From a virus, in IMG/VR virus record IMGVR_UViG_3300044623_001146, positions 1-26,935 of that record: a DNA stretch of 26,935 nucleotides; one strand, 5' to 3'. Below are positions 1,879 through 19,861 of this stretch, one piece after another. The position numbers were made by a program, and so were the translations under genes. The notes under the pieces are model-generated. The model had not been told where the DNA came from. It saw only the letters and a list, made by a program, of their open reading frames with translations, and ran no database searches. Every line of letters begins with the position of its first letter. Within the stretch, counting starts at the first letter, position 1.

Positions 1879-1879
1879 G

Positions 1880-4243: not shown

Positions 4244-5025
4244 TGGTTGCTCCTAAGTATTAAATCAACTACTCTATCTATTTCTGGTTTGTGTCCGGAA
4301 TTATAAGGACGAATGCTATGACAATCATTATACCAACCACTTAGTATTTTTGAATCGTCTGGTTTCCAACTAGCACGGTCGAGTCTTCTTTGACAAAATC
4401 CACCCGGTCTTTGTACTCTAATTATACGATCTTTGTCCGCAAATTTTTTAATTTTTGCACAGGAGAATGACTCGTCTATGCCCCAATTTGCCATATGAGT
4501 CTGATCAGGCTCATAAACACTAAAGGATTCTGGTGTATGGTTATAATTTATTTGTTTTGATCGTTCATCAATTTCGTTGATGGATTCTTCCCATGTATTA
4601 GGCAATTCTAATACTTCTTTGAATGTTTTGCCAGTACCACCATTGTAGCAAGCAGGAAAATAATCTTTATCTGCATTTAAATTAATATAAGCATCCGATC
4701 TAACATTCACTAAAGAATTGATAAAATATTCCCTAGACATTGGAAACATATCAATGTCCGAAACTAACCAAGTAGTATCTGGTTCTGTAATTGGATACCA
4801 ATATCTTGCCCACTGTGCTTGTATGTGCGGTAATATGTTTGAATTTGTTTTAAACTCCACAACAGTTCCATATTCTTCTGAAACATTTAATTGTTTCTTA
4901 TCTCCGAATAATATTAAAACAGGATGAATATTGAATTTCAACTTCCATACTTTAGACACCAACGGCCAAAAATCCAAATAGTACCGTTTATCATCACACG
5001 ACATTATTACTTTATTAATTTTCAT
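4240..5025 (-). CDS. GT-A-like glycosyltransferase
   Basis: 261 residues from the ATG at 5025, which has AAGGAT upstream; an in-frame TTG two codons earlier is a poorer start. TWLVSDIDMFPMSREYF near residues 88-104 contains a DID motif in the DxD position of GT-A transferases. CYNGGTGKTFKEV and WGIDESFSCAK could form acceptor and catalytic loops. The N-terminal KVIMSCDDKRYYLDFW is a typical first strand for proteins that read a nucleotide sugar. It lies two bases downstream of the next glycosyltransferase gene. Not closely similar to its neighbours at the motif level; product and linkage unknown. Confidence 0.62.
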   Translation of the reverse strand: MKINKVIMSCDDKRYYLDFWPLVSKVWKLKFNIHPVLILFGDKKQLNVSEEYGTVVEFKTNSNILPHIQAQWARYWYPITEPDTTWLVSDIDMFPMSREYFINSLVNVRSDAYINLNADKDYFPACYNGGTGKTFKEVLELPNTWEESINEIDERSKQINYNHTPESFSVYEPDQTHMANWGIDESFSCAKIKKFADKDRIIRVQRPGGFCQRRLDRASWKPDDSKILSGWYNDCHSIRPYNSGHKPEIDRVVDLILRSNQ

Positions 5026-5027
5026 GT

Positions 5028-5768
5028 TCAATCCTTATAATATTTTTCATCTTCAAAGTTTTTATGATATTCATTGTGAGTACACCCACCTGCTGCCAAT
5101 TTACCAATAAAATCATTATCATCACCATTCCAATCACACCCTCTCCATTCGCCTCTTAATGTTTTTTCGTACCAAGGCAAATTTCGTGGTATGGGAAATT
5201 CTTTCCCGTGTCCAAATCTACATAAGGGATCGTGTACTAGTGCTCTGTTGATTACGATAGGATAGACTATTTCCGCTAAAAATTCTTGATCTATGTTTTT
5301 TCTATTATTTGTATTTTTTCTGGAATAATTGTCTATCAATTCTTTCATATTTAAAATAACCTTGTTTCTTGCACCCCACATACCACCTAATATTTTTGTA
5401 CTATGGGCTCGATTATCTCTCATTATATGAAAATCTTTATTGCTTGCTAACCATTCATCTACTGCTGCTTTATCTCTAATATTCAATAAACTATCAGTAT
5501 CTCTGCTGATCATAACATCAACTGTTGGATCTGCAGCAGCATAGAATCTCCAAAACATTCCATTCCAACTTTCATCTTCTTGCATTAAAACAATTTCTGC
5601 TCCACGATTTTGTAATTCCTCTATTATTGCCTTTGGTACTGTAGGAGCAACATAAAATCGACAAATCCAGTCTGGAAATATTTGTTTTGCCAAATCTACA
5701 TTTCTAATTCCATTTACAGTATAGAATCCATTATTACCCCAAAGACAATATGATATTATTTTTTTCAT
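5028..5768 (-). CDS. Glycosyltransferase, tandem paralogue A1
   Basis: 246 residues starting MKKIISYCLWGNNGFYTVNG. VDVMISRDTDSLLNIRDKAA holds the RDTDS motif that fits a GT-A DxD, followed by HIMRDNRAHSTKILGGMWG. The same order of motifs (MKKIISYCLWG, WICRFYV, WxGMxxRFY, SRDTDS, MRD, GGMWG) recurs in the next upstream gene, so the two arose by tandem duplication. The C-terminus lacks the cysteine-rich zinc-ribbon-like part of its paralogue and ends in a short NDFIGKLAAGGCTHNEYHKN segment. This family is seen in phage and surface-glycan clusters; its reaction is not known to me. Confidence 0.68.
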   Translation of the reverse strand: MKKIISYCLWGNNGFYTVNGIRNVDLAKQIFPDWICRFYVAPTVPKAIIEELQNRGAEIVLMQEDESWNGMFWRFYAAADPTVDVMISRDTDSLLNIRDKAAVDEWLASNKDFHIMRDNRAHSTKILGGMWGARNKVILNMKELIDNYSRKNTNNRKNIDQEFLAEIVYPIVINRALVHDPLCRFGHGKEFPIPRNLPWYEKTLRGEWRGCDWNGDDNDFIGKLAAGGCTHNEYHKNFEDEKYYKD

Positions 5769-5772
5769 TGTT

Positions 5773-6684
5773 TTACTCGTAAATAGTTGTTAATCCCAAT
5801 ATATCTCTATCTTTTTGATAAAGTTTATAATACTTTACAATATTATTTCTTTCTTCAAGCTGCTCTGGAGTCAAATTGATATATTTGCATTCTTCATCGG
5901 TTAAGCATTCATCTCTTCCTATGAAATCTGAATCATGGTGCAATCCACAGCTGGGACATGCTTTATATTGTTTTCCATATTTTCTAGGAATAGGTAGTTT
6001 GTACATCAATTCCCCATCACTTGGTTTTCTAGCAAAATTTGGAAATCTTTTACAACCAAAAGCTATATCATCATGAGAAAGAATACTGATTTGATTTGGA
6101 TCAAATCCCATCAATTTATTTATAAGATTGCCAGTAGCATCAAGCAAACCAACAGCGTACATATATACAATTTCGTTTAAAAATTTCTGATCACAACCTT
6201 TTATAGCCGATCCACCTCTCATCGTGGATAAATGATGATCAATGTGGGGTTTGATCCATTTCAAATATCCTCGTCTAGTTCCCCATAAACCACCCATCAT
6301 CTGTGATTGATGTACACACGCATCGCGTATAACATGTAAATTTTTATCAGGCTCTTTTAACCACTGATCTACACAAGCTTTTTCTCTTGTAGACAATCTG
6401 CTATCAGTATCTCTGCTGAGCATAACTTCAACATCATCTTCTGTTGCTGGATAGAAACGATACAACATTCCACCCCAACCAACATCATCTGTATAAAACA
6501 CAATTTCTACATTGTCTTGCTTTTGTAATTCTTCTACTACCCAAGCCGGAACGCTTGGTTGATGAATATAGAAACGACAAATCCAGCCAGGATAGATTTC
6601 CTTTGCTTGTTTTGCATTGGATATTGCACCGACTGTATAAAGTGGCAGATCACCCCAAAGACAATATGATATTATTTTTTTCAT
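5773..6684 (-). CDS. Glycosyltransferase, tandem paralogue A2 with C-terminal cysteine motif
   Basis: 303 residues, clearly paralogous to the gene just downstream: MKKIISYCLWGDLPLYTVG, YPGWICRFYI, WGGMLYRFYPA, VEVMLSRDTDSRLSTREKA and QMMGGLWGTRRGYL match it in order. The RDTDS motif is the likely metal/nucleotide-sugar site. It is 57 residues longer, mainly in the C-terminal half, where CPSCGLH, DEC and DEEC provide four or five cysteines that could bind zinc. Its stop overlaps nothing and the next gene starts 4 bases on; its ATG shares the A with the TAA of the upstream gene. Sugar specificity is unknown. Confidence 0.68.
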   Translation of the reverse strand: MKKIISYCLWGDLPLYTVGAISNAKQAKEIYPGWICRFYIHQPSVPAWVVEELQKQDNVEIVFYTDDVGWGGMLYRFYPATEDDVEVMLSRDTDSRLSTREKACVDQWLKEPDKNLHVIRDACVHQSQMMGGLWGTRRGYLKWIKPHIDHHLSTMRGGSAIKGCDQKFLNEIVYMYAVGLLDATGNLINKLMGFDPNQISILSHDDIAFGCKRFPNFARKPSDGELMYKLPIPRKYGKQYKACPSCGLHHDSDFIGRDECLTDEECKYINLTPEQLEERNNIVKYYKLYQKDRDILGLTTIYE

Positions 6685-7271
6685 TAGTTCTTCTTCATAA
6701 ACTTGACAGTTTCTGATGTTCTAGAATCAAATTGATAAATGTACATTCTATCACCAATCAATGATTCAGTTTTCATTAATCCACTAGACCAGAGACGATG
6801 AGAATAGTCTTGATCTTCTCCATGTGAAATTTCAGGATATCGCACTTCTTTTGCTATGGAAGTCTTAATTGTATTCAAATGATTTGGTGTTCTGAATTGA
6901 ATGCCATCTTTTCTAAAATGCCCACCACAGTTTAGATTATGAATGAATGGCAAATTATACTTTGGCAAAAATCCAACAAGTTCAACAACATCCGGTCTTG
7001 ACTCCAACGCTTTTAGAGTTTTTGAAACATAGATGTCGGTAACCATATCATCATCGTCAATAAAGCAAACATATTCTCCTCTTGCTTTATCTAATACTGT
7101 GTTTCTTTTTTTACCTACAGTATTTTCACCATTATCAGTTTCAGTAATAATCTCAACAATATCTTGTGCATTTGCTGCTGCAATTTGTGTGTTGAGTACG
7201 GCGATCAATTTATTGTAAACATCTGCTCGTTTAGGCAAATGCAAAATACCTATAGTCCATAATATACTCAT
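6684..7271 (-). CDS. Family 2-type glycosyltransferase
   Basis: 195 residues with a compact GT2 fold. WTIGILHLPKRADVYNKLI forms the first strand and helix. TVGKKRNTVLDKARGEYVCF followed by IDDDDMVTDIY is the classic GT2 arrangement: a helix ending in N-x-x-L/A, then the DDD metal-binding motif at residues about 72-76. HGEDQDYSHRLWSSG near the C-terminus is the expected ED catalytic-base region. Full-length GT2 catalytic domains are about 180-230 residues. AAGGA lies upstream of the ATG, which overlaps the stop of the preceding gene. One of the more secure glycosyltransferase calls in the operon. Confidence 0.85.
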   Translation of the reverse strand: MSILWTIGILHLPKRADVYNKLIAVLNTQIAAANAQDIVEIITETDNGENTVGKKRNTVLDKARGEYVCFIDDDDMVTDIYVSKTLKALESRPDVVELVGFLPKYNLPFIHNLNCGGHFRKDGIQFRTPNHLNTIKTSIAKEVRYPEISHGEDQDYSHRLWSSGLMKTESLIGDRMYIYQFDSRTSETVKFMKKN

Positions 7272-7933
7272 AACGGAAATCCTTTTTCTTTTCTAGATTC
7301 AAATACAAGTTTATCTGTTTGATAAAACTTTTCTGTATGGGTTCTCAAATCATCTTTGATGTTGTGCCAATCGTGTGTGATTATTTTGTTGTTTATATCT
7401 TTGATTTTACTCATAGATCTAGCAACAACAGTTTGTTCTTCATCACAAAACAGACTAGTATAGTCTGGATGATATATGTAGTTGAATCTTTTGTAGTACG
7501 GATTTCCAATTACAGAAAGAACCATGACTTTAGGATATGCATGTCCTCCGCAATTATAATTCAATGCACCATCTAAATCTGGAAAATGTTGATTCATATC
7601 ATTCATTATAACACCATCATACCCATGCTGTTTTGGTGTCATATCATCAGAAACTAGAATACAAACCTTCCAACCATCTGCAGGAATATCTCTATTGCAA
7701 GCATGTATTTTATTTTTACTTGTACCGTAATGATATTCCAAATTAACTTTGGTTTTCATTTGCTCCAAGAAATATCGCATAGGATCGTTGTTACAGGATT
7801 CGTCATTCAAATCCATAGAAATGATAAACTTAACTTTATACATACCAGTTAACTTGTTCACATAATCTGTGAGTATTCTTTTGAATTGATCCGGTCTAGA
7901 TCTAGTTGGATATTTTATTAATAAGTCAATCAT
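7268..7933 (-). CDS. GT2-like glycosyltransferase
   Basis: 221 residues. MIDLLIKYPTRSRPDQFKRI opens like GT2 enzymes (xxYPTRxRP). KNKIHACNRDIPADGWKVCI followed by LVSDDMTP places an SDD motif where the GT2 DxD sits. HPDYTSLFCDEEQTVVARSM would be the catalytic D/E region, with HDWHN near the C-terminus. It is coupled by ATGA overlaps on both sides and shares the general plan of the adjacent 7930-8631 product. No membrane segments. Specificity not readable from sequence. Confidence 0.72.
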   Translation of the reverse strand: MIDLLIKYPTRSRPDQFKRILTDYVNKLTGMYKVKFIISMDLNDESCNNDPMRYFLEQMKTKVNLEYHYGTSKNKIHACNRDIPADGWKVCILVSDDMTPKQHGYDGVIMNDMNQHFPDLDGALNYNCGGHAYPKVMVLSVIGNPYYKRFNYIYHPDYTSLFCDEEQTVVARSMSKIKDINNKIITHDWHNIKDDLRTHTEKFYQTDKLVFESRKEKGFPL

Positions 7934-8631
7934 AGTGGGTTACTGTTTGGAAAATTGTTTTGTTTTCTTTCTCTGTATAACTTTTCCGCGATATGTTTAT
8001 TACCAGAAGGAATTGATGGAATAAAGTTATGAGATCCTCTCAATCTGTGTTCATGAAATTGACTCAGATCTCCTCGAATCCATAAGCAGTTATATTTAGT
8101 GGCAACTTGATACAGTTCAGTATCTGCCCACATGTGCCAATACCCTTCCCACATAGGTCCTTTGCCTTCATATATTCGTTCTCTGAATTCTTTTCCTAAC
8201 CAAGCACTGCCACATATCTGTTCGCAGGTTTCACATGCCATGCTTCCAAACTTATCACCATATGGTTGCATAACACCGAATGTGCCACCAAAATGCCTAA
8301 CAAACTGCAATCGCAATTCGTGTGCTTTATAATTTGGATCTGGGTGCATATCATCACCCGCTGCAATGATTATGTCATACTTAGTCAATTGTTTGGATAA
8401 ATGATTGACTGCATTAGGCCATCCTTTATATCCACCAATTTCTGATTCTAGAACTTTCAGATCAACCAGAGAAGAATATTCATTGCTGTGTTTATCTGGA
8501 CAGACAACTGCTATTTTATATCCAAGCTCTCTCCATTTTGGAAAAGTTTTCTTTGCCATTTGCAGATTTGCACTTGGAAGAGCCAACCAGACCTGTTCGT
8601 GTTCCTCGAAACTATTATATAATGTTGTCAT
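7930..8631 (-). CDS. Glycosyltransferase-like protein
   Basis: 233 residues. YDIIIAAGDDMHPDPNY near residues 86-102 has the GDD motif expected for a GT2/GT-A nucleotide-sugar site, and WEGYWHMWADTELYQVA has the later acidic motif. GWPNAVNHLSK is the GT2-like helix that precedes the metal motif. A CETCEQICGSAW segment carries three close cysteines of unknown use. It lies in the operon with 4-base overlaps at each end. The call rests on motif order; the protein diverges from well-known GT2 members at the N-terminus. Confidence 0.66.
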   Translation of the reverse strand: MTTLYNSFEEHEQVWLALPSANLQMAKKTFPKWRELGYKIAVVCPDKHSNEYSSLVDLKVLESEIGGYKGWPNAVNHLSKQLTKYDIIIAAGDDMHPDPNYKAHELRLQFVRHFGGTFGVMQPYGDKFGSMACETCEQICGSAWLGKEFRERIYEGKGPMWEGYWHMWADTELYQVATKYNCLWIRGDLSQFHEHRLRGSHNFIPSIPSGNKHIAEKLYRERKQNNFPNSNPL

Positions 8632-9260
8632 CTGCCTACCACAGATTTCAGTCTTCGACTTGCTTGGGTGTGCTCAATCACTACGGGTTGTTCCGGCTCA
8701 AACCATTTGCAATCAAATACCTTGCAATATGATTGTGGAAAATTAAAAGTACGCAAGCCTTTGTTGTCAAATTCTTCCCATACTTTTTGCAAGCTTTGCT
8801 GTTCCCATACCTTTGGATTTGCTTCGCTTTGTTTTTGCCATGCGTGAATCAAGTCTATAGCAATCTGGGTATTGTTGAAAAACAATGTACCACCTGCCAA
8901 GGCTTCATTCCCACGAGTCCAAGGCTTTAGATGCTTATTTCTTTCCTCATTCCAGACATTTGGAATCCAATAGCAACCAAAATCATAATTCTCTAATTCA
9001 TCGAATAATTTTGGATATCCTACAAATCTAGCATCAGCATCAGTCCATACAACTCCACATTTCAATTCGTGTATTGCACTTAATGTGACTTGTGCTTTCA
9101 TTGTGCAATTATGAACCCAAGAGTTTTTACTTGGCATTTCATATGATTTAAATGGATATTGTGCAGCAGTATTCTCTTGTAAAAAACTGTGACAAGATCT
9201 TCTCCATGCCACAGCTTCTTCTTTATATTCTGGCGTATAAAATGTTATAACTGAAATCAT
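8628..9260 (-). CDS. GT-A nucleotide-sugar transferase, tandem paralogue B1
   Basis: 210 residues. WTDADARFVGYPKLF near residue 75 supplies a DAD motif like that of nucleotide-diphospho-sugar transferases of the GT77-like group, followed by AGGTLFFNNT, the loop that usually follows it. The downstream neighbour repeats the same landmarks: W-V-x-N-C-x-x-KA, W-x-D-x-DA, a WEQQSLQKVW segment matching WDQWTLQQAW, and FPQSYCKVF matching LPQSYCQID. The two genes are therefore diverged tandem copies. Coupled by ATGA overlaps. The donor sugar is unknown. Confidence 0.72.
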   Translation of the reverse strand: MISVITFYTPEYKEEAVAWRRSCHSFLQENTAAQYPFKSYEMPSKNSWVHNCTMKAQVTLSAIHELKCGVVWTDADARFVGYPKLFDELENYDFGCYWIPNVWNEERNKHLKPWTRGNEALAGGTLFFNNTQIAIDLIHAWQKQSEANPKVWEQQSLQKVWEEFDNKGLRTFNFPQSYCKVFDCKWFEPEQPVVIEHTQASRRLKSVVGR

Positions 9261-9883
9261 GATCTATTCACCTTCTGTTCAACGGATGCTAATTTATGTA
9301 GGATCACTGCACCATGTCTACCATGTAACCGATCTATCTGACAATACGACTGTGGTAGGAACTCTGTAATGGGTTGTACATCGCACCAGGCTTGCTGCAG
9401 TGTCCATTGATCCCATGCACGAGGATCTTGCTGCTTCAGCTCAATCCAACGATCACACAGTTTTATGCTATTGTCACACACTCTTATAAAGATTGTGCCA
9501 GAATTGAACCAACAAGAAGGCGTGGTTGCTGGCCAATTATTAGGTAAATGAATTCGTTCTCTACCAGCCGGTAATTTACTTTTACCGCCTGGTTCTCCCC
9601 GAATCATAAATTCTTGATTACCCAATAATAATAAATCTGGATACTTTATTATTTGTGCATCGCTGTCGATCCAAACGAGACAGTCTCCTTGTGCAGATTC
9701 TAACAGCATTTCTTTTATGAATTCTGCTTTCAATGCACAATTTTCTACCCAAGTGCCTTTATCTTGTTTTTGTTTAATGACAAAATCTAGAGAGTGTTTC
9801 TTCAAACTACTCTCCAATTCTTTTATTAATTGTGGATATATCCCATTCGGTGTATAGAACGAGATAAATTTTAACTTATTCAT
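9257..9883 (-). CDS. GT-A nucleotide-sugar transferase, tandem paralogue B2
   Basis: 208 residues; diverged copy of the gene just downstream. CLVWIDSDAQIIKYPDLLLL gives the DSD motif near residue 75, GTWVENCALKAEFIKEML precedes it, SCWFNSGTIFIRVC follows it, and RAWDQWTLQQAWCD and FLPQSYCQIDRLHGRHGA close the domain. The order matches small GT-A transferases in which the N-S/N-G loop after DxD contacts the sugar. Start ATG overlaps the stop of the DUF115-like gene. Likely a step in the same glycan. Confidence 0.72.
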   Translation of the reverse strand: MNKLKFISFYTPNGIYPQLIKELESSLKKHSLDFVIKQKQDKGTWVENCALKAEFIKEMLLESAQGDCLVWIDSDAQIIKYPDLLLLGNQEFMIRGEPGGKSKLPAGRERIHLPNNWPATTPSCWFNSGTIFIRVCDNSIKLCDRWIELKQQDPRAWDQWTLQQAWCDVQPITEFLPQSYCQIDRLHGRHGAVILHKLASVEQKVNRS

Positions 9884-13200: not shown

Positions 13201-13212
13201 AACAAACAGAAT

Positions 13213-13295
13213 GCAAGAGGAGGGATTCGAACCTTCGTAGAAATTAATCAGCAGATTTACAGTCTGCCCTCGTTGACCACTTGAGTACCCTTGCC
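13213..13295 (-). tRNA. tRNA-Tyr (anticodon GTA)
   Basis: Acceptor GCAAGGG pairs with CTCTTGC; anticodon stem GCAGA/TCTGC around CTGTAAA gives GTA; a long variable arm marks class II, as expected for tyrosine; T-loop TTCGAAT. One A-C mismatch in the T-stem. Discriminator A, followed by TTC; CCA is not encoded. Confidence 0.92.
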
Positions 13296-13299
13296 AAAT

Positions 13300-13371
13300 A
13301 TCCAAGGTCGGGATCGAACCGACGACTTCTTCCGTGTAAAGGAAGCACTCTAGCCGCTGAGTTACTCGGAC
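13300..13371 (-). tRNA. tRNA-Val (anticodon TAC)
   Basis: Acceptor GTCCGAG/CTTGGAT with two G-U pairs, D-arm AACTCAGCGGCTAGAGT, anticodon stem CTTCC/GGAAG around TTTACAC (TAC, reads GUA), T-stem GTCGG/CCGAC with TTCGATC. Discriminator A, then TTT; no CCA. Confidence 0.93.
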
Positions 13372-13375
13372 AAAA

Positions 13376-13448
13376 CTCCCCGAACTGGACTCGAACCAGT
13401 GACATGCGAGTTAACAGCTCGCCGCTCTACCAACTGAGCTATCAGGGA
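13376..13448 (-). tRNA. tRNA-Asn (anticodon GTT)
   Basis: Acceptor TCCCTGA/TCGGGGA, anticodon stem GCGAG/CTCGC around CTGTTAA (GTT), T-stem ACTGG/CCAGT with TTCGAGT. Discriminator G as in bacterial Asn tRNAs, then TTT; no CCA. It starts seven bases after the 13455-13784 gene ends. Confidence 0.94.
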
Positions 13449-13454
13449 ATGCTT

Positions 13455-13784
13455 TCATATCTTTGCAATAAGTAATCCAACTATTGCAATCGTGCAACCT
13501 ATTACAGTTTTCATATCCAGTTTCACATTATATAGCATAATAGGAAACACTACACATAACATAGTGGCACCAACATCCCATATAATGTTGGTAATGAAAA
13601 CCTCTTTGGGTGTTTTCACATTTCTTATCAGTAGAACCCATGCAGCAGTGGTTATTGCTGCTGCTAGAATTGAAACTGCATATGCACTTAATGGTCTATC
13701 TTGGAAATACTTATTATACGAAACATGGGCATAGACCCAGTTCGCAAATACAATTCCAAATATAGAAAATAAAAGATGTATCAT
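13455..13784 (-). CDS. Small multi-pass membrane protein
   Basis: 109 residues with about four hydrophobic helices: MIHLLFSIFGIVFANWVY, SAYAVSILAAAITTAAWVLL, VFITNIIWDVGATMLCVVF and VIGCTIAIVGLLIAKI. Size and topology recall small multidrug-resistance/EamA-half proteins and small phage inner-membrane proteins, but no diagnostic residue pattern is clear. Preceded by the 13790-14140 gene with a short gap; AAAGTAG may serve as a weak ribosome site. Cytoplasmic membrane location is inferred. Confidence 0.7.
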   Translation of the reverse strand: MIHLLFSIFGIVFANWVYAHVSYNKYFQDRPLSAYAVSILAAAITTAAWVLLIRNVKTPKEVFITNIIWDVGATMLCVVFPIMLYNVKLDMKTVIGCTIAIVGLLIAKI

Positions 13785-13789
13785 ATAAA

Positions 13790-14140
13790 CTACTTTACTG
13801 ACTTTGAATGTTCTAGATCACTCCAATAATCAATTTCTGCAACCACCGACACTTGTTCGTAATACAATTGAAGAATCTTTTGATAAAGAATTTCTTCTCT
13901 ACGGCGAAGATCTGTTCTTCTAGAGTCTTTATAGTAATCCTGTTTCTTTGCTTTTACTTCTACAATCAAACATCCTATGGCTTCTTTGATAGATCCATAT
14001 TCTTGAACAAGAAGAGAAATTGGCATATTTTTTATATTCTTTTCAAATTCCTCGAAAGAAGTATCTAATATCCAATTCAATGTTCCAGTTACTTCTAATG
14101 GAAAAGTTTTTGTAATCAAAAGTTTCTTCTTACTTGCCAT
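13790..14140 (-). CDS. Unknown protein, 116 aa
   Basis: Begins MASKKKLLITKTFPLEVTGT at the ATG at 14140, overlapping the end of the upstream gene by 11 bases; the open frame extends further up only through that gene. Charged and helical, with a KKQDYYKDSRRTDLRRREE stretch and an EYGSIKEAIGCLIVEV segment. No family recognised. Part of a run of four small genes (14604 to 13455) bounded by tRNAs. Confidence 0.65.
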   Translation of the reverse strand: MASKKKLLITKTFPLEVTGTLNWILDTSFEEFEKNIKNMPISLLVQEYGSIKEAIGCLIVEVKAKKQDYYKDSRRTDLRRREEILYQKILQLYYEQVSVVAEIDYWSDLEHSKSVK

Positions 14141-14351
14141 TTTTATTCTTTCTATGTTCTTGTGAAAACGCAATAAAATCTTCTGGAACATCTTCTGGAT
14201 TGTTATCTGCTCTAACCTTTGCTCTATTGTACTCAACATCAGTCAACAACAGTGGAGTAACTTCTCCATCAGAATCCACATGTGCCACAAAATAATAAGA
14301 ATTATTTTCTGTTGGCTTTTTGTTTTTGTTTATAATTTTCTTTTTTGCCAT
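14130..14351 (-). CDS. Small basic unknown protein, 73 aa
   Basis: Starts MAKKKIINKNKKPTENNSYY at the ATG at 14351, with AGGA seven bases upstream; an in-frame TTG at 14375 would overlap the upstream gene. A lysine-rich N-terminus is followed by FVAHVDSDGEVTPLLLTDVE, which could be a small beta domain, and a charged tail. It overlaps the next gene by 11 bases and starts four bases after the previous one stops. Confidence 0.65.
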   Translation of the reverse strand: MAKKKIINKNKKPTENNSYYFVAHVDSDGEVTPLLLTDVEYNRAKVRADNNPEDVPEDFIAFSQEHRKNKNGK

Positions 14352-14355
14352 TGGT

Positions 14356-14604
14356 TTATCCTGATTGTTCGTCAAACAATCTACGCATTTCTAATATACC
14401 TTGGAATTTTTCATTTTGTCTATATGAATCAAATAGTTTGGTTTCCAAATCTACGATTACATCTTCGCTATTGTTTACAATTTTACGAACATCTTCTAAC
14501 AAACAAGAAAGACATTCAGTAGTTTGTTCATGTGTTTTGGCATGAATACTAGAAGTTTCTTCTATGGCACGATCTAGACGATTGATTATACTTGAATTTT
14601 TCAT
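14356..14604 (-). CDS. Small helical unknown protein starting at a tRNA 3' end
   Basis: 82 residues from MKNSSIINRLDRAIEETSSI. The ATG lies two bases after the discriminator of tRNA-Leu (A-TT-ATG); upstream bases are all tRNA, so no Shine-Dalgarno exists and no other Met occurs until near the C-terminus. The sequence is mostly amphipathic helix, with CLSCLLEDVRKIV. Its mRNA is expected to be leaderless after tRNA processing. Function unknown. Confidence 0.62.
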   Translation of the reverse strand: MKNSSIINRLDRAIEETSSIHAKTHEQTTECLSCLLEDVRKIVNNSEDVIVDLETKLFDSYRQNEKFQGILEMRRLFDEQSG

Positions 14605-14606
14605 AA

Positions 14607-14679
14607 TAGCACTGGTGGGACTCGAACCCACACTGTATTGATTTTAAGTCAATTGTCTCTGCCTTTGGACTACAGTGCC
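14607..14679 (-). tRNA. tRNA with anticodon TAA (Leu UUA), class I form
   Basis: Acceptor GGCACTG/CAGTGCT, D-stem GTC/GAC with G18-G19 present, anticodon stem ATTGA/TCAAT around CTTAAAA (anticodon TAA), T-stem GTGGG/CCCAC with TTCGAGT, discriminator A then TTA. All arms pair well in 73 nt. The variable region is only ACAGT (5 nt), whereas bacterial tRNA-Leu normally has a long variable arm, so the amino acid is assigned from the anticodon only. Confidence 0.85.
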
Positions 14680-14693
14680 GAAATACTAAGTGA

Positions 14694-14717
14694 TTGTTGG
14701 GAATTTCTTCCCAACAA
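14694..14717 (-). terminator. Stem-loop after tmRNA
   Basis: TTGTTGGGAA and TTCCCAACAA form a perfect 10-bp stem with a GAAA tetraloop just 3' of the tmRNA pseudoknot. No good U-run follows, so it may be a 3' stabiliser or processing element rather than a true terminator; tRNA-Leu begins 15 bases on. Confidence 0.6.
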
Positions 14718-14930
14718 CCGTGATCCGTTCAGTCGCCGGTGGATCAAGCCCCACTGCTTTAAGCAGCCATTGCTAATTGGTTAGCAATCATGGTTTGCAA
14801 CGGTTTATTTGCGACACTTGTTACCCGTGTCGGCCATCTCCTCTAATGTATATCTTTACTATTCGATTCTAGTTCGGCCCCGTAAGTGTTTGAATGGAGC
14901 CGGCGGTTACTGCCACCGCGTGATATATAA
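14717..14930 (-). ncRNA. ssrA: Circularly permuted (two-piece) tmRNA
   Basis: Rescues stalled ribosomes. Minus-strand order is 3' half first: T-arm GCGGT-GGCAGTA-ACCGC (14919-14903), then acceptor CGGCTCC and discriminator A (14902-14895), a 13-base intervening segment, then 5' acceptor GGGGCCG (14881-14875), which pairs with CGGCUCC. A tmRNA-like D region follows (CTAGAATCGAATAG). The resume site is GTC-GCA (14812-14810) and the tag reads ANKPLQTMIANQLAMAA followed by TAA (14761-14759), with its typical small hydrophobic end. CTGCT/AGCAG pairs around the stop. An H-type pseudoknot follows: TGATCC/GGATCA with ACCG/CGGT. GATATA and TATATC could form helix P2. The T-loop is atypical. Outer ends are approximate. 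Confidence 0.9.
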
Positions 14931-14965
14931 AGTTTAATATTAGTATCAACAATGACAAAGTGTAT

Positions 14966-15265
14966 TTAGGAAGTTGTCTTCAACTTCCGCTTGTTAGCAG
15001 CATCCTTAATAGCCAATGCATATAAGGCGTAATTTTTATCAACTTCATTTCTGATAGTTTTTGTACTGAAAAGGTCCAAACTTTTCAAACTTTTAATCAT
15101 AGATGCTTGATTTCTATTGAACTCATGAAGCTTTTCATTTTCTTTTTTGAGTTCCGCATTTTCTTTCTCTAATCGTTCAATTTCACAAGCACATATAGAA
15201 ATTTCTTCTACTAATTTCACAATTACAGGCGATACGGTTTCACCAGGTCCAGTATCTTCATTCAT
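14966..15265 (-). CDS. Coiled-coil unknown protein, 99 aa
   Basis: From MNEDTGPGETVSPVIVKLVE at 15265, overlapping the stop of the upstream gene; GGGTAAAG precedes the ATG. A leucine/glutamate heptad segment (EIERLEKENAELKKENEKLH) spans about residues 28-55, so it likely dimerises. The C-terminus is basic (KDAANKRKLK). A longer frame runs up to 15367 but only through the preceding gene. Function unknown. Confidence 0.65.
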   Translation of the reverse strand: MNEDTGPGETVSPVIVKLVEEISICACEIERLEKENAELKKENEKLHEFNRNQASMIKSLKSLDLFSTKTIRNEVDKNYALYALAIKDAANKRKLKTTS

Positions 15266-15446
15266 CTTTACCCTTTCCCCATCCCGTTCCATGCTTGTAT
15301 GCATTGATGATATCGTCTGTGTATTTACCTGATGCTTTGAGTACTCGAATTTCTTCGGCAGCATCACGACACATATCGTAAACTTCTTGGTTTACTGTGC
15401 GCCACTTGTCAGCCATATTTCGTAATCTTGTTTCTATATCATTCAT
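15258..15446 (-). CDS. Small unknown protein with promoter-adjacent start
   Basis: 62 residues, MNDIETRLRNMADKWRTVNQ followed by EVYDMCRDAAEEIRVLKA. The LR..A.W...N.......AA.EI..L pattern is common in small phage proteins of unknown role, and resembles the 15480-15779 product. A TATAAATA box ends eight bases upstream of the ATG and there is no ribosome site. Followed by a coupled overlap with the coiled-coil gene. Confidence 0.65.
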   Translation of the reverse strand: MNDIETRLRNMADKWRTVNQEVYDMCRDAAEEIRVLKASGKYTDDIINAYKHGTGWGKGKDE

Positions 15447-15453
15447 AGCGTTT

Positions 15454-15461
15454 TATTTATA
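15454..15461 (-). promoter_or_regulatory. T4-type late promoter TATAAATA, minus strand
   Basis: Exact late consensus. Its 3' end is eight bases before the ATG at 15446, leaving room for only a very short leader. Confidence 0.6.
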
Positions 15462-15479
15462 TCAAAGGCGTACTTTGCT

Positions 15480-15779
15480 TCATGCTCCGCGTGGGCCACC
15501 TGCCGTATGCGTATGCTCGGTGTCCCACGGGGGACACTTGCTCATTCTCTCTGCATCCTTGGCATAAAAAGTCATCTTCAATTCATAGTAGTCTCTCTCC
15601 TTAGTAAGAAACTGAATTCGATCCGAAGCCTCCCTCAGGAGATCGCGCACCACCTTGTGTGCAAAATCTGAATGTTCCTCTAGACGAGCCACAAGAGTAG
15701 ATGCGTCATTGATTGGTGCATTGTCATTTGTCATTGTCATGGCAATCTTTTCTCCAAGTGTGGGTGGTTTAATTCTCAT
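15480..15779 (-). CDS. Unknown protein, 99 aa
   Basis: MRIKPPTLGEKIAMTMTNDN, then a helical middle (HKVVRDLLREASDRIQFLTK followed by ERDYYELKMTFYAKDAERM) and a polar tail with CPPWDTEHTHTAGG. The ARLEEHSD..A...LREA.DRI..L pattern recalls small phage proteins annotated as restriction-alleviation-like or unknown, and is similar to 15258-15446. It overlaps the upstream gene by 11 bases. No function assigned. Confidence 0.65.
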   Translation of the reverse strand: MRIKPPTLGEKIAMTMTNDNAPINDASTLVARLEEHSDFAHKVVRDLLREASDRIQFLTKERDYYELKMTFYAKDAERMSKCPPWDTEHTHTAGGPRGA

Positions 15780-16008
15780 TGGTGTTCTCGTCCTGTGCTA
15801 ACTTAAAAAAAATATCGTGGTGTTTGTGAAGAATCTTTTCGTAACTCTTTGCTACAGATTCCTCGTGTTTATATAACGCTTTTAATTCGTTAAGTTCATA
15901 GGCAAGTTGCACAACATCCTCACGGAGTGTTTTAATCGTTTGCAATAGAACATCAGTAGGCGGAACTGCATCACCATGATCGTTATCTCCGACAAATATA
16001 TCAGCCAT
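15769..16008 (-). CDS. Small coiled-coil unknown protein
   Basis: 79 residues; MADIFVGDNDHGDAVPPTDV followed by a single long helix with heptad-like leucines (LLQTIKTLREDVVQLAYELN). AGGAAAG lies upstream of the ATG. It starts five bases after the end of the membrane-protein gene and overlaps the next gene by 11 bases. No family recognised. Confidence 0.65.
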   Translation of the reverse strand: MADIFVGDNDHGDAVPPTDVLLQTIKTLREDVVQLAYELNELKALYKHEESVAKSYEKILHKHHDIFFKLAQDENTNEN

Positions 16009-16012
16009 TGAT

Positions 16013-16201
16013 TTACTTTCCTACAGTAATGGTAATCTTCTGACAGAGTTGCAGACTCATGAGAAACAATGTACTAGCGGCAAAGGTGAGCATGGCTATA
16101 ATAGCCAAGTCAAGCAGTACAGAGAATACACCCGGTGGGGGCATTAGTGAAAGAGTATAACGCTTGTAAGCAGGCTTAGTGATTTTCTTTTTAGTAGTCA
16201 T
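16013..16201 (-). CDS. Single-pass membrane protein, 62 aa
   Basis: Basic cytoplasmic N-terminus (MTTKKKITKPAYKRYTLSLM) and one hydrophobic helix, VFSVLLDLAIIAMLTFAAST, running into LFLMSLQLC. AAGGAA precedes the ATG, which overlaps the stop of the phosphoesterase gene (ATGA). Likely an inner-membrane peptide; role unknown. Confidence 0.68.
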   Translation of the reverse strand: MTTKKKITKPAYKRYTLSLMPPPGVFSVLLDLAIIAMLTFAASTLFLMSLQLCQKITITVGK

Positions 16202-16755
16202 GTGTTTTCCTTGTGATGAAGTGCGGCAACGCGGTTTCGTATCTCATCGATACTTATTGGAGTATACCCGATTCTCTCTACACAGCAAGAGAAATATCTG
16301 AGATCTGTCACGCCTTCTACAAGCATCACTTCTTCGGCGTGTAGGTGAGCATGTATGTTCAACCAAAATGCATTTCGTTTGGCTCTCCATAGAGACACAG
16401 GATGAATAGGAATATGCGACAGAACTTCATTGTCGAGTTTGTGATATGCACGAACATCTCGAAAGTATTTAGCATACTGCGACAAAGGCAGATCATCGTG
16501 GTTGCCCTTGATGAGAATCTTTGAGCCATTGAGTGATCCAAGGATTTTTAGATCTTTAGGCTTAAATGCCACATCGCCCATGACATAAACCTTATCGCCC
16601 TTGCGAACGGTATTATTCCAGTTTGCCACCATGACTGCATCACCTTCTTCGGCACAAGAATATGGACGAACCTTTTCGCCATTTGCACGAACAAAGCGAT
16701 ACATGGCTTCGTGTCCGAAGTGAGTACAACCTATGAAATATGTACATGCGCTCAT
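16198..16755 (-). CDS. Calcineurin-like metallophosphoesterase
   Basis: 185 residues. Motifs in order: FIGCTHFGHEAMYRF (usual D-x-H with the aspartate replaced by Cys), VYVMGDVAFKPKDL (GD), ILIKGNHDDLPL (GNHD), VLSHIPIHPV and LNIHAHLHAEE (H-x-H), and a final GYTPISIDEI typical of this subgroup of phage/bacterial phosphoesterases. They build a two-metal site for phosphodiester or nucleotide hydrolysis. All ligands but the first aspartate are present. Coupled at both ends by ATGA overlaps with small membrane-protein genes. Substrate unknown. Confidence 0.88.
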   Translation of the reverse strand: MSACTYFIGCTHFGHEAMYRFVRANGEKVRPYSCAEEGDAVMVANWNNTVRKGDKVYVMGDVAFKPKDLKILGSLNGSKILIKGNHDDLPLSQYAKYFRDVRAYHKLDNEVLSHIPIHPVSLWRAKRNAFWLNIHAHLHAEEVMLVEGVTDLRYFSCCVERIGYTPISIDEIRNRVAALHHKENT

Positions 16756-16874
16756 GTGTTTCCCCTAAATGCGCGGATGGCAATAGACACCACAACGGCA
16801 AAAACAGCAGAAAGTATTGCAAGACCGACTACAAGGACAAACATAGTAGCAATAAAACTTATAAAATTATCCAT
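16752..16874 (-). CDS. Small membrane protein, 40 aa
   Basis: Reads MDNFISFIATMFVLVVGLAI then LSAVFAVVVSIAIRAFRGNT. One long hydrophobic helix ends in basic residues. AAGGAA lies upstream of the ATG and the TGA overlaps the phosphoesterase start (ATGA), which supports it despite the short length. Probably an inner-membrane peptide. Confidence 0.7.
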   Translation of the reverse strand: MDNFISFIATMFVLVVGLAILSAVFAVVVSIAIRAFRGNT

Positions 16875-16886
16875 GATATATTTCCT

Positions 16887-17165
16887 TTATGCACAAATAA
16901 TTTTTACTGCCAACCGTCCTTCAGTCTCCGACTTTATAATTTCTATAGATTTGACTATGCCACAATCTTTAGTATCAAGCAAAGGATCTCCAACTTGAAT
17001 ATATGGCCCACCTTCAAAATCGATCATATACAAACCAGAAACATCCTCAGACAATCCGGCGCATCTATAGTATTCCGTTTCTCCTTCAACAATAAAAGAA
17101 CCATCGGCTTGTTCAGTTATTGTGCGGATTTGACCATACCTAGATTTTATATTTTTAGTATTCAT
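16887..17165 (-). CDS. Unknown protein starting at a tRNA 3' end
   Basis: 92 residues, MNTKNIKSRYGQIRTITEQA, then beta-rich sequence (GSFIVEGETEYYRCAGL, GLYMIDFEGGPYIQVGD). The ATG lies two bases after the discriminator of tRNA-Gly (A-TT-ATG), so upstream bases are tRNA and no Shine-Dalgarno is possible; the next Met is near residue 47. Likely leaderless after tRNA processing. No family recognised. Confidence 0.65.
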   Translation of the reverse strand: MNTKNIKSRYGQIRTITEQADGSFIVEGETEYYRCAGLSEDVSGLYMIDFEGGPYIQVGDPLLDTKDCGIVKSIEIIKSETEGRLAVKIICA

Positions 17166-17167
17166 AA

Positions 17168-17239
17168 TGCGGTAGAAGAGAATCGAACTCTTGTGTCAGG
17201 TTTGGAAAACCAGCGTAATGGCCATTATACGACAACCGC
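17168..17239 (-). tRNA. tRNA-Gly (anticodon TCC)
   Basis: 5' GCGGTTG with 3' CTACCGC (one T-T mismatch), D-arm TCGTATAATGGCCATTACG very like phage T4 tRNA-Gly, anticodon loop TTTCCAA (TCC), T-stem AAGAG/CTCTT with TTCGATT. The anticodon stem also has one T-T mismatch. Discriminator A, then TT directly before an ATG; no CCA. Confidence 0.88.
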
Positions 17240-17247
17240 CAACAAAG

Positions 17248-17321
17248 TACTCCCACGGGGACTCGAACCCCGACTCTTCGCCTTGAAAGGGCGGTGATTT
17301 AGCCGGTTAATCTATGGGAGC
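17248..17321 (-). tRNA. tRNA-Glu (anticodon TTC)
   Basis: Acceptor GCTCCCA/TGGGAGT, anticodon region CACCGCCCTTTCAAGGCG as in bacterial Glu tRNAs (TTC), T-stem CGGGG/CCCCG with TTCGAGT. Discriminator A, then CTT; no CCA. Confidence 0.92.
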
Positions 17322-17376
17322 AGAAAGCCCCAAACAAACTTCATTATATATCGCCGGGGCCCAGCGGATGTAATTA

Positions 17377-17913
17377 TCAGCATGTCTGCGTTCTATTGCA
17401 GACCTTAGAGCAGTAATCGTACATCGCGATACCGCTTGCTGTACCAACATTGAGACTTCTGACAGATCCATATTGCTTAATATACACCATTTCATCACAC
17501 AAGTCAATCAGATTATGTGGAAGTCCAATTTGTTCTTGACCAAACATCATCAGCACAGGACGAGATTGTGGCCAAACAAATTCATCAATACTTTTGGCTT
17601 TACCAATATTGTCCACTCCAACAACATACATTCCACGCATGGCTTCTAACAATTCTTCCTCTTGTTTGAATTGTCTAAAATGCGTATAGTGATGTGTACC
17701 TACAGTACCTCTACGATCATATTGTTTGTGACCATAGATCCAAACTTCTTTTGCAAGAAAAGCGTTTGCATTTCTAATGACCGTGGCAATATTAAAATCA
17801 TTGCCAAGATTGCTGCATAGTACAGTAAAATTATTTCTCTTAGAATCAAGATTGGCAACAATGTCATCGTGATTCCAATAATGATAATGATCTATGATAT
17901 TGCGAGTTTCCAT
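17377..17913 (-). CDS. SPOUT (TrmH/SpoU) RNA 2'-O-methyltransferase
   Basis: 178 residues with the three SPOUT motifs: FNIATVIRNANAFLAKEVWI (motif 1, with the catalytic-type Arg), PVLMMFGQEQIGLPHNLI (motif 2) and YGSVRSLNVGTASGIAMYDY (motif 3, the knot that binds SAM). Family members methylate 2'-OH groups in tRNA (Gm18, Cm/Um34) or rRNA. The location between tRNA-Ile and tRNA-Glu suggests a tRNA target, though an rRNA target is possible. The ATG lies two bases after the tRNA-Ile discriminator with no ribosome site; the next Met is far inside. It lacks an N-terminal substrate-binding domain, as in short TrmH/TrmL forms. Confidence 0.9.
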   Translation of the reverse strand: METRNIIDHYHYWNHDDIVANLDSKRNNFTVLCSNLGNDFNIATVIRNANAFLAKEVWIYGHKQYDRRGTVGTHHYTHFRQFKQEEELLEAMRGMYVVGVDNIGKAKSIDEFVWPQSRPVLMMFGQEQIGLPHNLIDLCDEMVYIKQYGSVRSLNVGTASGIAMYDYCSKVCNRTQTC

Positions 17914-17915
17914 AA

Positions 17916-17987
17916 TACGCGATCCAGGAATCGAACCTGATTGAACCCGTTATAAGCGGGTCTGCGAAAACCGTCCGCCCATCGCGC
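17916..17987 (-). tRNA. tRNA-Ile (anticodon TAT)
   Basis: Acceptor GCGCGAT/ATCGCGT, anticodon stem ACCCG/CGGGT around CTTATAA (TAT, reads AUA), T-stem TCAGG/CCTGG with TTCGATT. Discriminator A, then TT and the ATG of the methyltransferase gene; no CCA. Confidence 0.9.
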
Positions 17988-18013
17988 TTGTTACTACTAC
18001 TGTATTATACTGA

Positions 18014-18280
18014 TTATTCTGTTTCTGTCAACGATGGAATCAGTACAATTTTTGATTTTTTGTTGTTTGCATGGCCAGAAGAATTCTTAATAAAGTAATT
18101 ACTCTTCTGGCGATCATCATCGTGGCCCAATCTATAATTGATAGATTCTACGCCAAGATCTTTGATGTGCTTTTCTGCAATCGCATTGTTAAAACCAAAT
18201 CGAATAATTTCTTCGGCAATTCTTAGTGCATCTGCTTCATTGCCATTAATCGGAATATCAATATGAAGTCTGTATGTCAT
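18014..18280 (-). CDS. Unknown protein, 88 aa
   Basis: MTYRLHIDIPINGNEADALR then IAEEIIRFGFNNAIAEKHIK. The alternation of a strand (YRLHIDI) with helices recalls a small ferredoxin-like fold, followed by a polar, basic tail. The ATG overlaps the stop of the upstream gene (ATGA), giving a two-gene unit. No family recognised. Confidence 0.65.
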   Translation of the reverse strand: MTYRLHIDIPINGNEADALRIAEEIIRFGFNNAIAEKHIKDLGVESINYRLGHDDDRQKSNYFIKNSSGHANNKKSKIVLIPSLTETE

Positions 18281-18636
18281 TCTTTGTATTCTTTCTTATC
18301 GTGCCAATATTCGTAATCGTTTTCTACGCCATGTCGAGTCTTCAAATCAATGTATTGAAAAACTGCCAATTCTTCTATGAAGCGATCTATCATACCAATA
18401 GATGTTTCATTGATAGGCCACTCATGTGGACCTGTTTCATTTCTATCACACGATTTGCATTTATCCGGATTCCGTTTGCAAATTTCCATTTCAGCAACTA
18501 TGAGATCGCCCATCTTGACCATATTCAAAAGAATCTCAAGTGCTTTTGCGCTTTGGTAATATAGATCTTTTTTAGGAAGTTCTTGCTCTTGGCGTGCGAG
18601 ATTGCGAAGTTCGTAACACATTTCTTGAATACGCAT
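18277..18636 (-). CDS. Unknown protein, 119 aa
   Basis: Mostly helical, MRIQEMCYELRNLARQEQEL, with CKRNPDKCKSCDRNETGPHE in the middle, where three cysteines and a histidine could bind a metal. AAGGAG lies upstream of the ATG and a GCTAAATA box lies about 30 bases further up. Coupled to the 18280 gene. Function unknown. Confidence 0.68.
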   Translation of the reverse strand: MRIQEMCYELRNLARQEQELPKKDLYYQSAKALEILLNMVKMGDLIVAEMEICKRNPDKCKSCDRNETGPHEWPINETSIGMIDRFIEELAVFQYIDLKTRHGVENDYEYWHDKKEYKE

Positions 18637-18666
18637 ATGATACTCCTTAATATAGATGTCTGATAT

Positions 18667-18674
18667 TATTTAGC
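18667..18674 (-). promoter_or_regulatory. Late-promoter-like box GCTAAATA
   Basis: Minus-strand GCTAAATA upstream of the ribosome site of the 18636 gene; identical to the box upstream of the 11986 gene. Confidence 0.4.
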
Positions 18675-18697
18675 ATCAACAACAATCAAAACACAAG

Positions 18698-18771
18698 CGT
18701 TCCCGGCTGGATTCGAACCAGCGACCATCAGATTAGAAATCTGATGCTCTATCCAACTGAGCTACGGGAAC
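18698..18771 (-). tRNA. tRNA-Arg (anticodon TCT)
   Basis: Acceptor GTTCCCG/CGGGAAC, D-arm AGCTCAGTTGGATAGAGC, anticodon stem TCAGA/TCTGA around TTTCTAA (TCT, reads AGA), T-stem GCTGG/CCAGC with TTCGAAT. Discriminator G, then CTT; no CCA. Confidence 0.95.
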
Positions 18772-18776
18772 AAAAA

Positions 18777-18806
18777 ACAATACGGCTGCTTTCGCACCCG
18801 TATTGT
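18777..18806 (-). terminator. Rho-independent terminator, minus strand
   Basis: ACAATACGG and CCGTATTGT form a 9-bp stem with a 12-base loop, followed by TTTTTTG on the minus strand. It ends the 18820-19137 unit just before tRNA-Arg. Confidence 0.75.
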
Positions 18807-18819
18807 ATCACAAATTTAA

Positions 18820-19137
18820 TTAAGCGTCAACTAACTTCAATTCAGGAACCGAAAGTTCTTGCGGGGTCGGAACAATGAGGCCATTACCAAATGCGCCATT
18901 GTAATGATTTGCAAGATCAGTCTTTGCTTCCACACTCCACACAATGGTATTGGTATTAATGAAAATACCATTTTCAGTGTTGCCATATGGAATCCAAGGT
19001 GCCATTCCCAATTCTCCCTTACCGGCTGGAATCAGAATCGCTGCTCCCTTTAGGAGAAGACCTCCGTCCTGTTCTTCCACCTTTGCGATTATCTGCTCCC
19101 CCGTCATCAGTCCCACAATCTGGATCTCGTTCTTCAT
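18820..19137 (-). CDS. Possible LSm/Sm-like small protein
   Basis: 105 residues: MKNEIQIVGLMTGEQIIAKV, then EEQDGGLLLKGAAILIPAGK. A first strand, then G-E-x-I-I-A-x-V-E, resembles the Sm1 motif and beta-barrel of LSm-like proteins reported in marine T4-like phages. The C-terminal half (GIFINTNTIVWSVEAKTDLA) ends in an acidic tail. AAGGAAT precedes the ATG. It overlaps the upstream gene by 119 bases in another frame. The LSm assignment is tentative; if right, it might bind RNA. Confidence 0.72.
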   Translation of the reverse strand: MKNEIQIVGLMTGEQIIAKVEEQDGGLLLKGAAILIPAGKGELGMAPWIPYGNTENGIFINTNTIVWSVEAKTDLANHYNGAFGNGLIVPTPQELSVPELKLVDA

Positions 19138-19243
19138 GATGTATTCCTTTCTTATTGAATATCATGTCGTAGTTTTTTGAGTACTTTTCCCAATCAACTT
19201 TTCTGTATGAGTCGCCTTTGCCAGCGCCATTTTTGCCTGCCAT
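19019..19243 (-). CDS. Small basic phage protein with long out-of-frame overlap
   Basis: 74 residues: MAGKNGAGKGDSYRKVDWEK followed by YSKNYDMIFNKK. The first 32 residues match a short protein common in tailed phages that begins MAG(K/R)NGKGD and usually ends soon after YDxIF. AGGAGG precedes the ATG with good spacing. Here no stop follows IFNKK, and the frame runs a further 42 residues into the 19137 gene, giving a Gly/Ser/Arg-rich tail. The overlapping tail is probably not under strong selection. Function unknown. Confidence 0.75.
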   Translation of the reverse strand: MAGKNGAGKGDSYRKVDWEKYSKNYDMIFNKKGIHHEERDPDCGTDDGGADNRKGGRTGRRSSPKGSSDSDSSR

Positions 19244-19258
19244 AAAAGACCTCCTGAA

Positions 19259-19330
19259 AGCTACTTACTGGACTCGAACCAGCAACCTGTGCTTTACAAA
19301 AGCACTGCTCTACCATTGAGCTAAAGTAGC
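19259..19330 (-). tRNA. tRNA-Thr (anticodon TGT)
   Basis: Acceptor GCTACTT/AAGTAGC, D-arm AGCTCAATGGTAGAGC, anticodon stem GTGCT/AGCAC around TTTGTAA (TGT, reads ACA), T-stem GCTGG/CCAGT with TTCGAGT. Discriminator T, then TTC; no CCA. Confidence 0.94.
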
Positions 19331-19333
19331 GAA

Positions 19334-19404
19334 TTGCCCTGCCTGGATTCGAACCAAGACAAAAACCTTCAAAGGGTTCGGTGCTACCGTTACACCACAA
19401 GGCA
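19334..19404 (-). tRNA. tRNA-Gln (anticodon TTG)
   Basis: Acceptor TGCCTTG/CAGGGCA, D-arm GGTGTAACGGTAGCACC, anticodon stem GAACC/GGTTT around CTTTGAA (TTG, reads CAA), T-stem CTTGG/CCAGG with TTCGAAT. Discriminator A, then TTC; no CCA. Three bases separate it from tRNA-Thr. Confidence 0.93.
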
Positions 19405-19406
19405 AT

Positions 19407-19435
19407 AGAAAAGACGGAGTTATTTATGCTCCGTC
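19407..19435 (-). terminator. Terminator hairpin with a late-promoter box in its loop
   Basis: GACGGAG and CTCCGTC form a 7-bp stem (19435-19413), followed by TTTTCTAT on the minus strand, ending the 19458-19718 gene. The loop contains CATAAATA (19428-19421), a late-promoter-like box that could restart transcription into tRNA-Gln and tRNA-Thr. Confidence 0.65.
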
Positions 19436-19457
19436 CTTTCGTTCACACAACTAGGTA

Positions 19458-19718
19458 TTAGCGAGTATCGCCAATACGGTAGTTCGAAGGACCAACGAGT
19501 CGAACACGCTTCATGCTGTAGCGAGTAGTACCTTCTCGCGTAGTGTGCGATACGATACGCCAGTTACCATAACGCTCAACAGTTTCCTTGATAGAACTAA
19601 TCGTTGCGCGAAAGTTCTTAACATCAAACAGTTGACGAGCCTGTGCAGAGGTGAGTCCGCGGCCGCTGTGCAGGTAATTCAAAACACGATCCTTCTTACT
19701 AGTAATGGTGGTTGTCAT
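19458..19718 (-). CDS. Winged-helix DNA-binding protein
   Basis: 86 residues. KKDRVLNYLHSGRGLTSAQA, then RQLFDVKNFRATISSIKETV, is the helix-turn-helix of a small winged-helix domain (residues about 9-48), with a wing-like beta hairpin in NWRIVSHTTREGTTRYSM. Similar proteins are common in phages with no known target and may act as regulators. AAGGA precedes the ATG. It is flanked by tRNA-Gln and tRNA-Lys. Confidence 0.78.
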   Translation of the reverse strand: MTTTITSKKDRVLNYLHSGRGLTSAQARQLFDVKNFRATISSIKETVERYGNWRIVSHTTREGTTRYSMKRVRLVGPSNYRIGDTR

Positions 19719-19789
19719 AAACCAATCCTTTCGTTACGGCATCAATAAATGGTAATACAAATTTGCCGAAAATCTGTATACACTGGAAG

Positions 19790-19861
19790 TGCCTCCAGTA
19801 GGGATTGAACCTACGACCTATCGGTTAAAAGCCGACTGCTCTACCGCTGAGCTATAGAGGC
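19790..19861 (-). tRNA. tRNA-Lys (anticodon TTT)
   Basis: Acceptor GCCTCTA/TGGAGGC, D-arm AGCTCAGCGGTAGAGC, anticodon stem GTCGG/CCGAT around CTTTTAA (TTT), T-stem GTAGG/CCTAC with TTCAATC. Discriminator A, then CTT; no CCA. Confidence 0.95.

Follow-up and report, generated by a model that had tools for sequence, protein, structure and literature searches.

The window analysed here, the whole 26,935-base stretch of IMG/VR virus record IMGVR_UViG_3300044623_001146, carries a circularly permuted (two-piece) tmRNA gene on the minus strand at 14954-14759. Judged from its sequence, this is very probably a working-type phage ssrA gene, permuted and with a tag of its own. An earlier note on this DNA had proposed a phage-encoded circularly permuted tmRNA with its own tag; gene order, the pairing of the acceptor strands (P1) and Rfam matches support the proposal, and its coordinates were correct, the feature lying on the minus strand. 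The features are listed below; "family" refers to the phage relatives of the window gene and "alpha" to the alpha_tmRNA type (RF01849).

14895..14956, minus strand: acceptor piece (3' half), 5' end approximate (sequence, RF04321/RF01849 alignments, conserved in relatives)
14953-14944, minus strand: family-type 5' end of the acceptor piece, ATTGTTGATA, followed by a P2 strand
14919-14903, minus strand: T-arm GCGGT-GGCAGTA-ACCGC (sequence)
14902-14896, minus strand: acceptor strand CGGCTCC (sequence)
14895, minus strand: discriminator A (sequence)
14882..14894, minus strand: intervening sequence TTCAAACACTTAC, 13 nt, predicted to be removed (sequence)
14881-14875, minus strand: acceptor strand GGGGCCG (sequence)
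14833..14881, minus strand: 5' part of the coding piece, with GGGGCCG, D-like arm and P2 strands (MFE fold)
within 14833..14881, minus strand: D-like arm GAACTAGAATCGA, alpha-type (alpha match 12/13, family maximum 10/13)
within 14833..14881, minus strand: P2 strands GATATA / ATTAG / ATGGC (MFE fold)
14797..14832, minus strand: pseudoknot PK1, stem CGACAC/GTGTCG, loop GTAAC with GTTGC (100% paired in 38 sequences)
14810..14812, minus strand: resume codon GCA of the earlier note, touching stem 1 of PK1 at its 3' end; not adopted (GTA in 34/38)
14769..14788, minus strand: hairpin in the tag codons, ATTGCTAA-CCAA-TTAGCAAT (register fits 25/38)
14759..14785, minus strand: tag frame GCT..TAA, most likely ANQLAMAA-stop, with translation resuming 11 nt downstream of PK1 (8-codon tag in 38/38)
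14753..14767, minus strand: stop-codon hairpin GCTGC-TTAAA-GCAGT (100% paired in 38, one two-sided pair)
14721..14754, minus strand: downstream pseudoknot-like element, GUGGG...TGATCC/GGATCA (CCCGC in 37/38, CCGGC in the window)
14694..14717, minus strand: GAAA-loop hairpin TTGTTGGGAA/TTCCCAACAA, terminator-like, near the 3' end (compensated in L109/L140/L141/L156)
14607..14679, minus strand: tRNA-Leu(TAA), directly downstream of the tmRNA, in the tRNA cluster

Genomic context

The record belongs to a T4-like phage known from metagenomes alone. Its T4-like genes encode a peptidase (phrog_459), an exonuclease (phrog_298) and GP88, and are closest to proteins of cyanophages and Pelagibacter phages. 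The tmRNA gene lies within a tRNA-rich region (13212-19861) with 11 tRNA genes, none of which encodes CCA; mostly TT follows instead. Since all 11 tRNAs lack an encoded CCA, CCA addition by the host would be general for this phage. The region also contains a gene for a SpoU/TrmH-type RNA methyltransferase (17377-17913, minus strand), and elsewhere in the window a run of about a dozen ORFs on the minus strand (1018-9883) looks by eye like glycosyltransferases and methyltransferases.

Gene order and the tRNA-like domain

The 3' tRNA half is located upstream of the 5' half in the window, and the same order was found in all readable relatives. The acceptor strands CGGCTCC and GGGGCCG pair at 7/7 positions with a lone G-U at position 3:70, and 13 bases (14894-14882) separate the two halves; the perfect pairing with one G-U and the 13-base gap are as the earlier note had described. 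Position 3:70 is the alanine identity pair. CCA is not encoded after the acceptor piece. A geometric scan of both strands for a 5-bp T-arm, xxxxTCC, A and a fully pairing GGG-strand, all within 130 nt, returned this one site, and dinucleotide shuffles gave a mean of 0.03 such arrangements per window.

The covariance-model check proposed earlier gave scores above cut-off for RF04321 (permuted tmRNA; 63 bits vs 47, E 3.4e-10, an end-to-end match over positions 1-213) and RF01849 (55 bits vs 50), and the best tmRNA clan match of the window was alpha. Parts of ordinary one-piece tmRNAs also score ∼56-72 bits with RF04321 and ∼43-60 bits with RF01849, so bit scores alone do not prove permutation, and the permutation call therefore rests on gene order together with P1. 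ARAGORN did not call a permuted tmRNA gene in the window. The MFE fold of the precursor recovered P1, the T-arm and P2, as well as stem 1 of PK1 and the hairpins at the tag and the stop codon; the fold of the shorter form had a z-score of -2.0.

We compared 55 distinct members in which both halves are readable. G1-C72, G2-C71, G3-U70 and A73 were invariant, so that the alanine identity pair with discriminator A was present in the window and in 55/55 members, and pair type varied at pairs 4 to 7 and in the T-stem. This set was selected for full P1 and T-stem pairing; what is informative is only that 3:70 never changes and that pair types differ. Two sequences outside the set (L105 and L124) have one mismatch each by eye. 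The outer P2 pairs switch jointly (GGTAT/ATACC, GACAT/ATGTC; GTCAT/ATGGC in the window).

Pseudoknots and the tag reading frame

Tag and PK1 counts come from 38 distinct coding pieces that were aligned with one another. PK1 is paired throughout this alignment: three pairs of stem 1 show two-sided changes (CGACAC/GTGTCG to CGTTTC/GAAACG) and stem 2 (GTAAC/GTTGC) is invariant. Two-sided changes in the alignment amounted to 26 cells, compared with 6.6 in shuffles. PK1 stands before the tag and is the better-supported pseudoknot, although the earlier note did not include it and described one after the tag. That downstream element is present in the relatives, where GUGGG pairs with CCCGC, but the window copy (GUGGG with CCGGC) has one mismatch. 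In many relatives (L096, L098 and L117 among them) a T-run comes after the stem CCCGG..CCGGG of the downstream pseudoknot; this stem could play a double role as an intrinsic terminator. The hairpin within the tag codons is less uniform: in the 13/38 sequences that do not fit its register, a CCGCA/TGCGG hairpin is possible instead by eye; at this site the AAPxRMAA group can form a different hairpin, again by eye.

The window tag is most likely the 8-residue ANQLAMAA, its frame preceded by PK1 and closed by a stop codon. Each of the 38 sequences has an 8-codon frame whose first codon, GCC or GCT, lies 10-11 nt beyond PK1. The tags of these coding pieces are ANQLAMAA, ANELAMAA, ANELAIAA, ANKLAMAA and ANQMAMAA, as well as ANYMAMAA, ANYMAVAA, AAPMAMAA, AAPMRMAA and AAPLRMAA. 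The earlier note had read a 17-residue tag, ANKPLQTMIANQLAMAA, resuming at GCA. The open frame is indeed present in the window and in 21/38 sequences, and GTGTCGCAAAT is similar to the resume site of E. coli tmRNA; nevertheless, this resume codon abuts stem 1 of PK1, a stem supported by covariation, and reads GTA in 34/38 sequences, and in 17/38 the 17-codon frame is lost through a length difference of one base that leaves the 8-codon tag intact. A permuted tmRNA using the longer tag is thus highly improbable. We prefer ANQLAMAA because its frame is kept in 38/38 sequences, the 17-codon frame is not conserved and starts at a codon touching PK1, and two one-piece bacterial tmRNAs (L180 and L181) with the same PK1 resume after it (GCC AAT GAC GAA AAC..). 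Calling tags by open frame alone can choose the wrong resume codon.

Phage relatives and sequences between the halves

Starting from a phosphoesterase neighbour, we reached 24 related viral contigs, of which 10 matched RF04321 (7 above cut-off); two related phage records (G003 and G006) gave no permuted tmRNA match. The PK1 pattern matched 87 IMG/VR stretches, 80 of which were read. In GTDB genomes (257 Gb, bacterial and archaeal), this 18-base pattern had 8 taxonomically scattered matches, which we judged to be at chance level. A blastn search of INPHARED with the window tmRNA found short chance matches only, and family-type queries found one 28-base tRNA match or nothing. With these 87 stretches, the analysis contributes a sizeable family of phage two-piece tmRNAs that seems not to have been annotated; the queries used gave no genuine match in INPHARED phage records. 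For the relatives L026-L032 and L082, the best clan match was beta_tmRNA (RF01850) at 37-55 bits, below the cut-off of 84. A search for the host lineage with a model of the body (R2) gave no assignment: it matched in 2/398 Pseudomonadota genomes, and both matches were one-piece tmRNAs.

The intervening sequence ranges from 5 to ∼200 nt in relatives. Some, such as L096, L113 and L114, have merely 5-6 nt between the halves. In others (L081, L098, L117, L128 and more) a structured RNA of 70-100 nt, type I, occupies this site. Its alignment (A2) shows five helices, one of them a contact between loops (CTGC/GCAG), and strong covariation: two-sided changes occur in 12 pairs and 48 cells, and 96% of cells are paired. 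A type I model (R3) found copies solely between tmRNA halves, and no copy in the window. A type II RNA of ∼120-200 nt, closed by GGTTAG/CTAACC, is found in L106, L107, L118, L137, L147 and L152 and is unrelated to type I by eye. Neither type had an Rfam match other than to tmRNA models.

Mosaic origin of the window gene

The T-loop GGCAGTA had been called non-canonical. This does not hold for alphaproteobacterial tmRNA, in which it is the normal type (RF01849 consensus GGCgGUA); the oddity is the family body beneath it, as TTCRANT is the loop in all 54 other members whose halves could be read. We scored the segments of the gene against both types. The 5' end of the acceptor piece matches the family at 11/11 positions and alpha at 9/11, the T-loop matches at 2/7 and 7/7, and the D-arm at 10/13 and 12/13, respectively. 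From PK1 to the stop codon, the match is 78/82 to the phage family and 37/82 to the best of 43 alpha-type phage sequences. DNA similarity to the syntenic L140, L141 and L152 starts at 14842 and runs on downstream through tRNA-Leu, further tRNAs and ORFs, which places the window body in a shared locus. A second copy of the acceptor piece was not found in IMG/VR, and an alpha-type tRNA-like domain on a family body was seen in this one contig only.

By these matches the window gene looks like a mosaic in which family sequence borders a tRNA-like domain of alpha type (∼14943-14843) on both sides, and it probably arose via replacement of that contiguous domain. A single exchange could swap it, because permutation makes the domain contiguous (∼100 bp including the intervening sequence). 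It is less likely, though far from negligible, that the domain came to resemble alpha by drift, without an exchange: P1 and P2 are fully compensated in the window, as after gradual change, and convergence is feasible in short sequences, but the T-loop is alpha at 7/7 and the D-arm at 12/13 positions between flanks that are still family-type, and there is no intermediate among the 54 relatives. With the combination in one contig only, exchange and rapid in-place change would look the same in a tree. Following the replacement reading further, we tentatively suggest that phages might exchange the tRNA-like cassette to suit the SmpB and AlaRS of a new host and keep the tag module, the site between the halves hosting interchangeable structured RNAs. 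If true, this offers a testable reason to favour permutation, as the host-facing half would be swappable in one step.

Proposed mechanism

On the model of the known tmRNA pathway, a single minus-strand transcript would fold with CGGCTCC and GGGGCCG base-paired. A cut before G14881 by RNase P of the host, together with trimming of the acceptor piece back to A14895 by host 3'-processing, would free the 13-nt intervening sequence. CCA would then be added by the tRNA nucleotidyltransferase of the host, and host AlaRS could charge the molecule via G3-U70. Together with host SmpB, it would enter stalled ribosomes, where translation would resume at GCU (14785) and add Ala plus ANQLAMAA; the AMAA end should serve as a degron for a host protease. 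The redirected proteolysis of stalled products put forward in the earlier note is hypothetical. No smpB was detected in this record or in 18 related fragments, which are fragments and not whole genomes.

The lack of smpB alongside the gene and the mismatch in the downstream pseudoknot would suit a decayed or captured remnant without function. We consider a remnant unlikely, as P1 is paired at 7/7 positions, P2 and the T-stem are complete, tag and stop codon are intact, and the family is conserved with covariation. Mycobacteriophage DS6A has a tag-less tmRNA reported, in work cited by PMC11915505, to compete with the host tmRNA. A decoy of this kind, competing instead of rescuing ribosomes, would fit a phage-encoded RNA presumably dependent on host SmpB and AlaRS; it is quite unlikely here, as the tag frame and stop codon, needless for a decoy, are conserved in 38/38 sequences.

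Comparison with known tmRNAs

The phage two-piece tmRNA is a kind already known, and the window copy is a variant of it. Such tmRNAs were described in Methylophilales phage Melnitz, and 53 of 133 distinct phage tmRNA structures called by ARAGORN were two-piece (PMC9004378). One alpha-type pattern alone found 45 IMG/VR contigs; "rare in phages", as the earlier note put it, is therefore not supported. RF04321 itself derives from PMC11915505, and Pelagibacter phages HTVC008M and Mosig match it at 91-94 bits. Melnitz, HTVC008M and Mosig resemble the window in gene order, two-piece design, T4-like phage background and possession of their own tag; the window differs from them in its 13-nt intervening sequence and PK1 body. 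HTVC008M also encodes CCA, unlike the window, and its tag, read in this analysis as ANFNEYALAA, differs from the 8-residue window tag.

Alpha_tmRNA shares with the window the T-loop GGC[AG]GTA and the D-arm TAG.ATCGA. However, in the genomes sampled most full alpha_tmRNA matches reach 200-317 bits, compared with 55 in the window, the alpha-type PK1/tag body is not that of the window, and CCA, missing in the window, is encoded in all 45 alpha-type phage sequences (which were picked by the alpha T-loop itself). The one-piece tmRNAs (RF00023) of the two Pseudomonadota genomes L180 and L181 have the same PK1, GGTAAC..GTTGC, before the resume codon, but they are not permuted and their longer tag starts with ANDENY. 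The family of uncultivated phages found in this analysis (L081-L160) shares PK1, an 8-residue tag, the stop hairpin, the absence of CCA and G3-U70 with the window, and in L140, L141 and L152 also the order of the tRNA cluster. The family has the canonical TTCRANT T-loop and an intervening sequence that is often 70 to ∼200 nt and structured, in contrast to GGCAGTA and 13 nt in the window.
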